Under the pieces are notes generated by a model. It worked only from the letters and a program-made list of their open reading frames with translations, searched no databases and was not told where the DNA came from. The position numbers and the translations under genes are program-made. From positions 434,001 through 498,000 of the forward strand of contig JAUILN010000006.1 in assembly GCA_030432695.1 (NCBI GenBank): a stretch of 64,000 nucleotides of DNA, written 5' to 3'. This stretch comes from a bacterium. GTDB taxonomy: Bacteria; Planctomycetota; UBA1135; UBA2386. Below are positions 26,835 through 31,528 of this stretch, piece by piece (the stretch's first letter is position 1; the number at the start of each line of letters is the position of its first letter).

Positions 26835-27857
26835 TCAGCGCACCCGCACCAGTCGATGCGCCGGCAGCGCCTGGCCGCGCAGCCACGGCGCGATGTCGGC
26901 AAGGAAGCGCTGGCCGTCGACGTAGTAGCCGGCGGTCGGCTGCAGGCCGGGGATCCGCGCGGTGAACCACTCGTTGAGCACCGTCATCAGCAGTTCGCGG
27001 ACGTACTTCGCCATGCAGCTGGCCAGCGCCGTGGGGAACGCGCGCTCCTCGCCGCCCTGTGCGAAGGTCACGCGGATCGTCGTGTCGCGGCCGGCCGGCC
27101 GCAGTTCGTAGGTGGAGACCATGGCGCCGTCGGTGCCTCGCAGCACCCGCCAGTCCGGCAGCGCCCGGCCGAGTGCGCTGCGGTAGTGGGCGCGGCCGCC
27201 GCAGCGGTCGACCATCACGTGGCCGCTGTCCCGGATCGAGACCGCTTCGAGCAGGCGACCGAGCACCGCGGCGATCGCCTCGAAGTGGGTCGTCGACTTG
27301 TTGTCGGTGGCGGCGATCGAGGCGTTGAACTCCTCGACGTCGACCGGGCGTAGCGCGAGCGGGCCGAGGGGAGCGATGCCGGCGCGGTCCATGCAGCGGC
27401 GCAGCAGGTGGCCGCGGAGCGCCAGCTCGTCGAGGCTGTCGGCGGCGATCGGCAGGGCGCGGTGGTCGAGTTCCTCGTACCACGGACAGCGATCGATCCA
27501 CGTGCGGTCGACGCCGGCGCGGTCCAGCAGGTCGCCGACCGTCTCGGGCAGCTCGCCGTCGTGCCACGCGGCCCAGCTCACCAGCACCGTGCGCTCCAGT
27601 CGCTCCAGGCCGCGCGGCCCCTGCTTCACCTTCTTGCTGTCGGCGACCACGATCTGGTCGCTCCGCGGACGAGACCGCGCGACCACCGGCTCCAGTGCCT
27701 GCCAGGGATCGGTGCCCGGTGGACCCTCAAGTCCGGCGCCGGCGACCACCAGCGGTCCGAGGATCGGCCCGAGTCCGGCCTCGTCGACGCCGGCCAGGCA
27801 GCGGTTGGACGCGGTCGGATTCAGGGAAGGCCTCCGTCGCGCCGATAGGGATCGCAT
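26835..27857 (-). CDS. RNase HII/HIII-like protein, divergent and enlarged
   Basis: 340-residue relative of type 2 ribonucleases H, which cleave the RNA strand of RNA-DNA hybrids. The N-terminal signature GVDEAGLGPILGPLVVAG holds the first two acidic ligands (Asp25, Glu26) and is followed by VADSKKVKQG. Asp217 lies in VMVDRCGGRAHY, and the last acidic residue is Glu288 in CMAKYVRELLM. The resulting D-E-D-E set is that of RNase HIII rather than the D-E-D-D of HII, yet the N-terminal TBP-like domain of HIII is absent. A region of about 100 residues between DSKK and DVEEFNASI is longer than in ordinary RNase HII (about 200 residues total). The ATG at 27857 avoids overlap with the divergent gene at 27897; the frame is open to 27926. 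Confidence 0.82.
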   Translation of the reverse strand: MRSLSARRRPSLNPTASNRCLAGVDEAGLGPILGPLVVAGAGLEGPPGTDPWQALEPVVARSRPRSDQIVVADSKKVKQGPRGLERLERTVLVSWAAWHDGELPETVGDLLDRAGVDRTWIDRCPWYEELDHRALPIAADSLDELALRGHLLRRCMDRAGIAPLGPLALRPVDVEEFNASIAATDNKSTTHFEAIAAVLGRLLEAVSIRDSGHVMVDRCGGRAHYRSALGRALPDWRVLRGTDGAMVSTYELRPAGRDTTIRVTFAQGGEERAFPTALASCMAKYVRELLMTVLNEWFTARIPGLQPTAGYYVDGQRFLADIAPWLRGQALPAHRLVRVR

Positions 27858-27896
27858 CGGTCCCCAGTTCGGGGGGCAGGAGCCGGCAGGAACGAC

Positions 27897-28307
27897 ATGG
27901 AGATCCTCCTCATCGAGAGCGACCACCTGATCCGCGACCAGATCAAGGTCGGCCTCCAGCAGTTCCCGGAGTTCACGATCACGTGTGGCGAAGGATACGG
28001 AGGGATCAACCTCCTGCGCCAGCGTCGCTACGACCTCGCGTTCCTCGGCGTGCGCGCCAACGCGACCGAGGCCCGGCGCACGATCGAGTATCTGCGCAGC
28101 TTCGAGCAGAGCGTCGACGTGGTGGTGGTGACCGCGCAGAAGACCGCGCGCGACCTGCAGAGCGAGAAGTCGCGGCTGAACATCTGGTCATTCCTCAGCA
28201 CGCCGGTGCAGGTCAGCGAGTTCTTCCGGATGGTGTCCCGGATCCGCGAACGCCTGCACACGCCGGTGGCGGCCGCGGCGGGTCAGTCCCTGGCACCGCA
28301 CCGCTGA
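27897..28307 (+). CDS. Receiver-like protein without phospho-acceptor Asp (pseudo-receiver)
   Basis: 136 residues with the length and strand order of a CheY-type receiver domain and no output domain. The acidic pair is present in modified form (LLIESDHLIRDQI, Glu7/Asp9), but the phospho-acceptor position after strand 3 is Gly51 (YDLAFLGVRANATEA, where LLDIxMP is usual). The conserved Thr is kept (VVVVTAQKT, Thr79), and the conserved Lys of the KP pair is Thr102 (WSFLSTPVQVSEF). Aspartate phosphorylation is therefore not expected; the protein may act as a constitutive or ligand-controlled adaptor. A CAGGA Shine-Dalgarno precedes the ATG. The Pus10-like gene starts 30 bases downstream and is probably co-transcribed. 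Confidence 0.78.
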   Translation: MEILLIESDHLIRDQIKVGLQQFPEFTITCGEGYGGINLLRQRRYDLAFLGVRANATEARRTIEYLRSFEQSVDVVVVTAQKTARDLQSEKSRLNIWSFLSTPVQVSEFFRMVSRIRERLHTPVAAAAGQSLAPHR

Positions 28308-28337: not shown

Positions 28338-29117
28338 GTGAAGGCGAAGCCGCGTGTGCTCCTCGAGTCCCGCTACCGCAAGCTGGAGCGTGGGCTGCCG
28401 CAGACCATCCATTTCTGTCCGGCCTGCGGCGGGCGGCGCCGACAGCGGCAGAAATGCACGGTCTGCGAAGGGCGAGGGCGGATCAGCGAGGACTCGGTGC
28501 AGCAGCTCTTGTCGCGGCGGATCCTGCCCGCCTTCGACGCCCGCAAGTGCAAGTTCCATGGGGCGGGGCGCGAGGACGTGGACGTGCTGATGCTCGGCCG
28601 CGGCCGTCCGTTCGTCTTCGAAGTCGAGGAGCCGAAGGTCGAGGACGTGGATCTGGAAGCGCTGCGCGCGAAGATCCATGCCGAAGTCGGCGAACGGGTC
28701 CAGTTGACCGAGCCGTTCCGTCGGGTCCAGCGGCGGCGGGTCGGCGAGATCAAGGAGGCGCACTGGTCGAAGCACTACCGCATCGGGGTAGCGGTCGAGT
28801 CGGCGCTGCCGGCGGACGCTGCCGAGCGCCTTGCGGCTCGCGAATTCCTGGTGAGGCAGCGGACCCCGGAACGCGTCGCGCATCGGCGGGCCGACATGGT
28901 GCGGACCCGCCAGATCCGCATCCTCGCGGTCCGCGTGCCGGGACCCGACCATCCGCTCGAACTCGACATCGAGACCTCCCACGGCACCTACGTGAAGGAG
29001 TGGGTGTCGGGCGATGGGGGACGGTCGGAGCCGAGCCTCGCCGAGATGCTCGGGACTCCGGCCAGCTGCGAACGGCTCGACGTGCTGGAGATCCTGGACG
29101 TCACTCCCCCGCGATGA
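28338..29117 (+). CDS. Pus10-like tRNA pseudouridine synthase, short bacterial form
   Basis: 259 residues strongly resembling the catalytic half of Pus10, the enzyme that makes pseudouridine 54/55 in archaeal and eukaryotic tRNAs. Diagnostic blocks: FHGAGREDVDVLMLGRGRPF, then VFEVEEPK (catalytic Asp expected at Asp80 in GRED), FLVRQRTPERVAHRRADMVR, and SHGTYVKEWVSGDGGRSEPS, then LAEML. The large THUMP-containing N-terminal half of archaeal Pus10 is replaced by about 60 residues carrying a zinc-knuckle pattern CPAC (27-30) and CTVC (40-43) followed by EGRGRI, like a DnaJ-type zinc repeat. Start is GTG at 28338. The 3' end overlaps the convergent membrane-protein gene by 17 bases. Pus10 is mainly an archaeal/eukaryotic family, so this is an unusual bacterial member; the uridine position is unknown. 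Confidence 0.85.
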   Translation: MKAKPRVLLESRYRKLERGLPQTIHFCPACGGRRRQRQKCTVCEGRGRISEDSVQQLLSRRILPAFDARKCKFHGAGREDVDVLMLGRGRPFVFEVEEPKVEDVDLEALRAKIHAEVGERVQLTEPFRRVQRRRVGEIKEAHWSKHYRIGVAVESALPADAAERLAAREFLVRQRTPERVAHRRADMVRTRQIRILAVRVPGPDHPLELDIETSHGTYVKEWVSGDGGRSEPSLAEMLGTPASCERLDVLEILDVTPPR

Positions 29118-31026
29118 ACCGCGGATACCCGCGGTCGAAGCCGAGTCGGAGCGGAGTGCGGTTGGCGTGGGTGGCGGTGAACTGACCGTTCACCATGCGC
29201 CCGGCCTCGACCAACAGCGGGAAGCGCAGCGACAGGTCGAGGGCGGTGGGCGTGGCCAGCGCGAAGGCGACGTGGTGTTCGTCGGCCGCGTCGTATTCCA
29301 CGTGGCGGGCGGTCAGCAGCTCGAGCACGTCGATCTGGCCGGAGTCGAGGTCCGGCCCGGCGCGGTCGGGTAGCAGCACCGTGAGGTAGCCGCCGGCGGT
29401 GAACAGGCTCACCCGGTAGTGCTGTGCACGCACCGAGACGCGGATCCGGTGCACCCTGCTGCCCTCGTGCAGTGCCAGCAGGTCGCGGGTCGCCACCACT
29501 TCGGGCCCGAGGTTCTCGAGCTGCAGCGGCTGCAACCCGGCGCGAGGCAGCAGGACCGCGGTCCGGCCGTCGGCGCTTACCTGCATGGTCGGCAGGTCGA
29601 ACGGCAGTGCCGACGATTCGCCGTAGGGTAGGGTCCGGACCAGGGGATCCTGGGCCAGTGGTCGCAGCGCCAGCACCTCGCGTTGTTCGGCCGCCGGCAC
29701 GAACGGTGGACGCAGGATCCGGTCGACGCCCAGGTGGTAGGCGACCGCGGTGCCACGTCGGTTGGTCCGCGGCAGGCCGTGGACGAACAGCGTCTCGGCG
29801 TCGGTCTCGCTGCCGAACTCCTGCACCCGCTCGTGGATCTGCCGCGTGTCGTCGAACAGGCCGAAGTAGTCGCGGTGTACCTGTACCAGCGGCAGCGCGA
29901 AGACCGCGAGCATCAGGGTGCCCGGCAGCGGTCCGGCGGAGGCGATCCACAGCGCCATCGCGGCGAACGGCAGGTAGTAGAGGCGCAGGCTCTCGGGGTT
30001 CTGCCAGTCGCCCCAGCTGTGCACCGCCGGCAACACCGCGATCGCGTAGGCGGCGAGGCCCAGCAGCGCGTGGGCGTGGCGGCGACGGAACAGCAGCCAG
30101 GCCAGCGCGACCACCGGCGGCAGGTAGCCGAGCGGGACCAGCCACCCTGGGGGTGCTGCGTCGCCGGGTGCGCAGAGCGGCAGGGGATTGAGTGCTCGCG
30201 CGGTGCCGGCGCCGAGACCGATGAGTGTGTCGAGGCCCAGAGGTGGGCTCTCGACGTAGCCGCCGAGGAATCGTCCGAGCACCGCGTAGCGCAGTGCGAA
30301 GTAGCCGACCAGCAGCAGGGCGAACGGCAAGGTCGCCCGGATCGCGGTTTGGAGTCGTCGGTCGGTCCTCGCCGCGGCGAACGCCGTCACGGCGACGAGT
30401 CCCGGCAGCACCATCGCCGACTCCTTGCTGCACAGGGCACCTGCCGCGGTGACGAGCGCGAAGGCCAGTGCGCGGCGCCGGCCGTCGACCCATCTGGTGA
30501 CCAGCAGCAGCGTGGCGAGCACCCAGACCGTGGTGTGGCTGTCGACCCGACCGACCGCCCACAGGATCGAACCGGCGTGGGTCGGTGCGAGGGCCCAAAG
30601 GAGCCCGGCGAGGAAGCCGCGGAGCGGGCCGACGAGGCGTGCGCCCAACGCGCCGAGGAGGACCGCCGAGGTCGCGTGGGCCAGCGTGTTGACCACGTGG
30701 GCGACCAGTGGATCGGCGCCGAACACCGCCTGTTCCAGCCAGAAGCTGAAGGTGATCAGCGGCCGGTAGAACCAGACCACGCCGGGCAGGTGGTACTGGT
30801 TGCCGGCGAAGTCGGCGAGCGCGCGGTCGAGGTCGTGCGCGTAGTGGACCGCGATCCAGTCGTCGCTCTGCCAGAACGACTGCAGCGGCCACCACGCAGC
30901 TGTCGCGAGCACGAAGAGCAACCACGGCAGCGGCAGCCGTTCACGCGGCGATGGGGTGGCGTCGGCTGCGAGCCGGTCGAGGTCGCGCTCGTTGGCGTCC
31001 ACGGGACTCGACGGCCACATCGTCAT
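29101..31026 (-). CDS. Polytopic membrane protein, possible GT39/PMT-like glycosyltransferase
   Basis: 641 residues with about eleven hydrophobic segments in the first 400, then a soluble C-terminal domain of about 240 residues. The first extracytoplasmic loop contains WQSDDWIAVHYAHDLDRALA, an Asp-Asp pair placed like the catalytic acidic residues of GT39/PMT-type transferases, followed by YRPLITFSFWLEQAVFG. Other segments: AHVVNTLAHATSAVLLGALG, WAVGRVDSHTTVWVLATLLL. This layout, including a lumenal 'WYRP'-like stretch, is typical of large putative mannosyltransferases in planctomycetes, but the donor and acceptor cannot be read from sequence. Lies 22 bases downstream of the FabZ-like gene on the same strand; convergent with and overlapping the Pus10-like gene by 17 bases. 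Confidence 0.75.
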   Translation of the reverse strand: MTMWPSSPVDANERDLDRLAADATPSPRERLPLPWLLFVLATAAWWPLQSFWQSDDWIAVHYAHDLDRALADFAGNQYHLPGVVWFYRPLITFSFWLEQAVFGADPLVAHVVNTLAHATSAVLLGALGARLVGPLRGFLAGLLWALAPTHAGSILWAVGRVDSHTTVWVLATLLLVTRWVDGRRRALAFALVTAAGALCSKESAMVLPGLVAVTAFAAARTDRRLQTAIRATLPFALLLVGYFALRYAVLGRFLGGYVESPPLGLDTLIGLGAGTARALNPLPLCAPGDAAPPGWLVPLGYLPPVVALAWLLFRRRHAHALLGLAAYAIAVLPAVHSWGDWQNPESLRLYYLPFAAMALWIASAGPLPGTLMLAVFALPLVQVHRDYFGLFDDTRQIHERVQEFGSETDAETLFVHGLPRTNRRGTAVAYHLGVDRILRPPFVPAAEQREVLALRPLAQDPLVRTLPYGESSALPFDLPTMQVSADGRTAVLLPRAGLQPLQLENLGPEVVATRDLLALHEGSRVHRIRVSVRAQHYRVSLFTAGGYLTVLLPDRAGPDLDSGQIDVLELLTARHVEYDAADEHHVAFALATPTALDLSLRFPLLVEAGRMVNGQFTATHANRTPLRLGFDRGYPRFIAGE

Positions 31027-31048: not shown

Positions 31049-31528
31049 TCACAGCAGGACGCCGAGCAGTTCCATGTCCATCACCATCTTGCCCTCGCAG
31101 AAGGCCTGCGCCGGGTACTTGGCGATGCGGTTGCCGCTGCGGCTGCCTACCTTGGAGACGAAGTAGACCCGGGCCGGAGGGGTGACCTGACCGCGATAGC
31201 GGACCTTGTCGAGGCCGCCAAGGCCGATGAAGCGCTCCGCGCCCCAGCCTTCGCTCTTCTTCATCAGGATCGTCGCGACCTGAGCGGCACCTTCGGCCAG
31301 CAGCACGCCCGGCATCAGCGGTCGGCCGGGAATGTGGCCGCGACCCCACCAGGGCTCCTCCTCCCAGTCCTTGTAGCCCACCACCACGCCGGCCTCGAGG
31401 TCGAGGTGGCAGATGCCGTCGATCAGCTGGAACTCGTGCCGGTGCGGCAGCATCGTCCGCAACTCGTCTTCTGGCAGGACGTCGCGTTCGAGATCGAGGG
31501 TGGACAGGTCGACGAGTTCGCGGGCCAT
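31049..31528 (-). CDS. FabZ-like 3-hydroxyacyl-ACP dehydratase (hot-dog fold)
   Basis: 159-residue hot-dog protein of the FabA/FabZ family, which removes water from 3-hydroxyacyl-ACP in fatty-acid synthesis. The active-site block GRGHIPGRPLMPGVLLAEGA, then AQVA, matches FabZ GHFPxxPxMPGVLxxEAxAQ with the catalytic His65 and Glu79 in place. MLPHRHEFQLIDGI corresponds to the conserved LPHRxPFLLVD block, with the usual aromatic/Asp pattern slightly altered. The segment after the central helix (GLGGLDKVRYRGQVTPPARV) fits the substrate-tunnel strands. Length is normal for FabZ. It may be a stand-alone paralogue rather than the housekeeping fabZ, since no lpx or fab genes surround it. It heads a probable two-gene unit with the membrane protein downstream. 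Confidence 0.85.
   Translation of the reverse strand: MARELVDLSTLDLERDVLPEDELRTMLPHRHEFQLIDGICHLDLEAGVVVGYKDWEEEPWWGRGHIPGRPLMPGVLLAEGAAQVATILMKKSEGWGAERFIGLGGLDKVRYRGQVTPPARVYFVSKVGSRSGNRIAKYPAQAFCEGKMVMDMELLGVLL

Follow-up and report, generated by a model that had tools for sequence, protein, structure and literature searches.

A THUMP-less Pus10 pseudouridine synthase as the probable replacement for TruB in an order of Planctomycetota

The window analyzed here, by which we mean the whole stretch of 64,000 nucleotides of planctomycete DNA, carries on its forward strand (28338-29117) an open reading frame that starts with GTG at 28338, encodes a protein of 259 amino acids, and ends with a stop codon at 29115-29117, in agreement with the strand and coordinates given by the first-pass annotation. 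The protein matches the NCBIfam model of Pus10, TIGR01213, with 254.5 bits against a curated cut-off of 200 (E 1.6e-75), and the Pfam domain Pus10_C over residues 10-252 (E 1.6e-55; PF21238, 188.7 bits against a cut-off of 27). Among solved sequences, human PUS10 (2v9k) was the sole strong match by phmmer (E 2.5e-27). Placement in the TruB or RluA families, which had been named as an outcome that would speak against Pus10, did not occur: the TruB, RluA, and RsuA families of Pfam and NCBIfam, including the TruB models TIGR00431 and PF01509, gave no match to the protein at E <= 0.1. The gene is single-copy in the window's genome, which is rated 88% complete. Its nearest named relatives are encoded by metagenome-assembled genomes, with 50-61% identity in the best segment; five of the six nearest are titled Planctomycetota and one just "bacterium". 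The surrounding features are collected in Table 1. Genes resembling the response-regulator-like upstream neighbor were found at 11 of 45 Pus10 loci of the window's own order.

Table 1. Features of the pus10 locus, in coordinates of the window
Feature	Position	Strand	Residues	Basis or remark
Divergent RNase HII-like protein	26835..27926	-		PF01351, 37.1 bits
Single-domain response-regulator-like protein	27897..28307	+		PF00072, E 1.6e-6, just under cut-off; directly upstream neighbor, not part of the enzyme
In-frame TGA, stop of the preceding gene	28305..28307	+		11 codons before the GTG
THUMP-less Pus10 pseudouridine synthase	28338..29117	+		TIGR01213, PF21238, AlphaFold2, 2v9k match
C27-x2-C30 ... 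C40-x2-C43 (CPAC...CTVC), presumed zinc knuckle	28416..28466	+	27-43	Alignment with archaeal Pus10
Basic spacer GGRRRQRQK between the CxxC pairs	28428..28454	+	31-39	Longer than archaeal
Catalytic motif GREDVDVLMLGRGRPF	28566..28613	+	77-92	Aligned to GREDVDV of 2v9k
Conserved block VRQRTPERVAHRRAD	28851..28895	+	172-186	Alignment of 124 sequences
Conserved block GTYVKEWVSGDGGRSEPS	28983..29036	+	216-233	Alignment of 124 sequences
PMT_2-like membrane protein, downstream of pus10	29101-31026	-		PF13231, just over cut-off
FabA/FabZ-like dehydratase, downstream of pus10	31049-31528	-		Matched in 30/45 loci of the window's order

The match to TIGR01213 spans only model positions 161-401 of 402, and the protein therefore lacks what would be the first 40% of a typical Pus10. 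The in-frame stop codon shortly upstream of the GTG leaves no space for a THUMP half. Consistent with this, the archaeal Pus10-THUMP model PF22023 matched none of the 41 genomes sampled from the window's order, so that a THUMP half encoded by a separate gene was not found with this model, which performs poorly even on longer Pus10 proteins from planctomycetes (weak matches in 3 of 26 Pus10-bearing Planctomycetota genomes outside the order). The same model matched four archaeal control genomes, and a Pus10_THUMP_arc domain was detected in both full-length archaeal Pus10 proteins scanned. The absence of the THUMP half, already noted in the first-pass annotation, was thus confirmed, and for this reason we classed the protein as a THUMP-less variant, apart from typical Pus10.

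Four cysteines at positions 27, 30, 40, and 43, which form the presumed zinc knuckle, are invariant in a 29-row alignment that includes archaeal Pus10. Full-length archaeal Pus10 proteins have the same four cysteines in the same columns, just before the catalytic domain, and since they carry both the cysteine motif and THUMP, we rejected the idea that the zinc knuckle is a substitute for the missing half. Of the original description of a bacterial Pus10-like enzyme with a knuckle in place of THUMP, one part stands, as the protein is a bacterial Pus10 catalytic half without THUMP, in Planctomycetota; the replacement by the knuckle does not. The stretch that separates the two CxxC pairs varies among the five families of the order (here f1 to f5): it is Arg-rich and 9-10 residues long in f1, f2, and f4, and has 4-6 residues in f3 and f5, compared to 4 in the archaeal rows shown.

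To describe the fold, an AlphaFold2 model was built from the 29-row alignment of the window protein with the sequences of its relatives, archaeal Pus10 included, and it reached a mean pLDDT of 93.3. Foldseek returned 2v9k first (E 1e-22), with the runner-up at 1e-6, and VIA-align superposed the model on 2v9k with Z 26.9 and an rmsd of 2.0 over 235 residues at 34% identity, the runners-up being TruA and Cbf5 at Z 13.0. According to this model, the window protein is predicted to have the PUS10 catalytic-domain fold. In the alignment to 2v9k, Asp80 (28575-28577) pairs with the GRED aspartate of human PUS10, the catalytic Asp344. All 124 aligned relatives retain the GREDVD motif and Asp80, so the loss of the catalytic Asp, proposed earlier as a sign against Pus10, was not observed. 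All three blocks that the first-pass annotation had likened to Pus10 are present in the translation; in the second, Q174, P177, R179, V180, R183, and R184, and in the third, G216, Y218, K220, and E221, are invariant in all 124 aligned sequences.

Compared to known enzymes, the catalytic half is 38-46% identical to that of archaeal Pus10 (COG1258/TIGR01213; here from Thermoplasmata), with which it has in common the Asp of GREDxD, the four preceding cysteines, and the blocks with Arg, Lys, and Tyr. Most archaeal Pus10 proteins, however, have about 160-180 or more extra N-terminal residues, carry THUMP in both proteins scanned, and have a shorter CxxC spacer. In Planctomycetota from outside the order (26 genomes), the Pus10 proteins also score over the TIGR01213 cut-off and are mostly longer; their matches begin at model positions 55-148, in one case at 181. 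The catalytic domain of human PUS10 resembles that of the window protein, as described above, whereas passages of PMC9957541 attribute to the human enzyme a large accessory domain at the N-terminus, part of it related to THUMP, and coexistence with TRUB1. TruB (TIGR00431/PF01509), presumed to carry out the same reaction at the same site, has the superfamily fold in common (Z about 12) but differs in sequence family.

We then considered how Pus10 and TruB are distributed in 392 Planctomycetota genomes, 41 of which belong to the window's order. The Pus10 model matched 72 genomes and 67 passed the cut-off: all 41 of the order (among the non-matching genomes listed, ranked closest kin first, none belongs to it) and 26 outside. 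Five weak matches of 22-40 bits (G006, G029, G033, G282, G284) were dropped, as TruB-type matches lay in the same open reading frames. These divergent frames, on G006:C9, G029:C168, G033:C109, G282:C559, and G284:C19, are both weakly Pus10-like (model positions about 290-373) and TruB/Cbf5-like. In the control genomes, Pus10 was found in 4 of 14, all four archaeal, and in none of the 10 bacterial ones. The first-pass annotation had suggested looking for truB in the same genome; extended to 154 genomes of the order, 53 of them of good quality, this search found TruB in none. The model used was positive in 14 of 14 control genomes. A second model, PF01509, which detected TruB in 6 of 6 TruB-bearing planctomycetes, likewise matched none of the 41 genomes of the order.

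Across the phylum, TruB was found in 190 of the 392 genomes, but in only one of the 67 with strong Pus10 versus 189 of the other 325. When the count was restricted to genomes with a completeness of 90% or more and a contamination of 5% or less, the figures were 0 of 33 versus 120 of 183. By family, using hand-made tallies, TruB was present in 2 of 20 families with Pus10 versus 56 of about 80 without (Fisher p 1e-6); the anti-correlation is clustered by lineage. The single strong-Pus10 genome with TruB, G035, is one of the 26 outside the order, 86% complete and 3% contaminated, in about 1010 contigs. Gaps in assembly are not the cause of the pattern, since TruB is also missing from two Pus10-bearing genomes assembled into one contig of 4.95 Mb (G387) and two contigs (G155). 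At the same time, 136 of the 392 genomes had neither enzyme by these models, indicating that TruB can be lost even where Pus10 is absent and that the lack of TruB is not by itself proof of a takeover. In 32 of these genomes that were rechecked, PF01509 gave no match. The group with neither enzyme includes G004, G007, G049, G057, G070, and G088; some are near-complete and G088 is in one contig.

The substrate sequence is present in the window's own genome. Of 43 tRNAs found, 30 loci were retrieved and 32 distinct genes examined; the T-arm region of all 32 includes GTTC[GA]A, corresponding to a T-loop of G-U54-U55-C-R-A. Given an order with a short Pus10 and without detectable TruB, we consider it probable, with a likelihood of roughly 0.77, that the THUMP-less Pus10 took over the formation of tRNA Psi55 from TruB in the window's order. 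A planctomycete-specific enzyme acting at a new site, as proposed in the first-pass annotation, appears less likely than a takeover of the old site, because TruB was found in none of the 154 genomes of the order and the T-loop is kept in all tRNAs examined.

Pseudouridine synthases act through attack of an Asp on a flipped-out uridine, followed by re-attachment of the base through C5, and in other THUMP enzymes the THUMP domain grips the CCA end. By analogy, the minimal Pus10 would convert U55 of the tRNA T-loop, and possibly also U54, to pseudouridine: Asp80 of GREDVD would attack the flipped-out uridine, the base would be rejoined via C5, with conserved Tyr, Arg, and Lys residues from the remaining blocks holding it in position. 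Without THUMP, recognition may depend on the T-arm itself, which the catalytic domain would hold, perhaps together with the basic zinc knuckle. Passages of PMC9957541 report that a T-arm micro-helix is enough for Methanocaldococcus jannaschii Pus10 to form Psi54 and Psi55 and that human PUS10 is active on CCA-less tRNA; these two activities suggest, by analogy, that THUMP may be dispensable for Pus10.

The question of position 54 divides the order. TrmFO scored over the cut-off in every f3 and f5 genome (15 of 15) and in none of the 26 of f1, f2, and f4, the window's family included. In f1, f2, and f4, the families without TrmFO, Pus10 might therefore make both Psi54 and Psi55, giving archaeal-style T-loops in a bacterium. 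The longer basic knuckle occurs in these same families, and some archaeal Pus10 enzymes form both modifications according to passages of PMC7912444. However, RumA-type m5U methyltransferases (PF05958) show the reversed pattern, with 25 of 26 genomes in f1, f2, and f4 versus 2 of 15 in f3 and f5. The window's genome has two RumA-type proteins with the RlmD model as best match, one over the cut-off and the other just below it (180.2 versus 183.55), and one of the two could methylate U54. TrmY was detected in none of the 67 strong-Pus10 genomes, and the split between families may reflect just one or two evolutionary events. In the families of the order, the near mutual exclusion of TrmFO and RumA-type proteins coincides with the split in Pus10 spacer length. 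U54 could thus be methylated by TrmFO or by a RumA relative; Psi54 in f1, f2, and f4 is possible, and dual modification there seems to us unlikely on balance. The distribution of TrmFO, RumA-type proteins, and TrmY favors Psi55 as the main product of the window's Pus10. The most elaborate version, in which the order swapped TruB for a THUMP-less Pus10 that grips the T-arm with its knuckle and also forms Psi54 in the TrmFO-less families, we regard as quite doubtful.

It is also conceivable, but rather improbable, that Pus10 moved to rRNA or to a few tRNAs, U55 being left unmodified or served by another enzyme. The loss of THUMP, presumed to grip the tRNA end, would fit such a change of substrate, as would the large number of planctomycetes that lack both TruB and Pus10, in which Psi55 is perhaps dispensable or made by another enzyme. 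The near-complete mutual exclusion of Pus10 and TruB across the phylum and the unchanged T-loop nevertheless speak against it, and the takeover of Psi55 formation by Pus10 remains the preferred reading.

As for the origin of the gene, the Pus10 sequences of the order form one clade, with a support of 1.0 in FastTree (46 sequences) and 88 in IQ-TREE (14 sequences), which is not nested in Thermoplasmata in either tree. The sister of this clade differs, as IQ-TREE pairs it with L015, L017, L019, and L119 at 100 and FastTree does not. The trees have low support in their deep branches, draw on a narrow range of archaea, and include one outgroup, the human sequence, which sits on a long branch. The ancient transfer suggested by the first-pass annotation is compatible with a single clade outside Thermoplasmata, but with such deep branches the trees are no proof of it. 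A contig scan retrieved 57 relatives, almost all from Thermoplasmata or Planctomycetota because the scan depends on shared peptide patterns; separate scans of plasmid records and viral contigs gave no match. The most conserved neighbor is the RNase HII-like gene, with a tblastn match at 41 of 45 loci of the order, and together with the single clade it suggests that the gene was acquired once long ago or inherited, and argues against contamination. Indeed, archaeal contamination of planctomycete bins or a decayed gene fragment, to which the archaeal character of Pus10 in the controls and the absence of half of the protein might point, is refuted by its presence in every sampled genome of the order, the single clade, motifs that are invariant at 38-62% identity, the stable neighbor, and the occurrence of pus10 in the one-contig and two-contig genomes.

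To our knowledge, TruB is near-universal in bacteria. Pus10, in turn, is described in reviews as an enzyme of archaea and eukaryotes, and as not occurring in Bacteria in passages of PMC7912444 and PMC5682645; among the titles and abstract openings searched, none reported a bacterial Pus10. Database entries of this name may have been assigned automatically by the NCBIfam model, without a paper. The window protein is a new variant form of Pus10 in an unexpected domain of life. If the takeover is true, a core tRNA enzyme would have been exchanged for a non-orthologous one across a whole order, and the half-size Pus10 would be a natural minimal enzyme for testing the role of THUMP. The need of THUMP for T-arm specificity would then become testable, as would the identity of the Psi55 maker in planctomycetes with neither enzyme.
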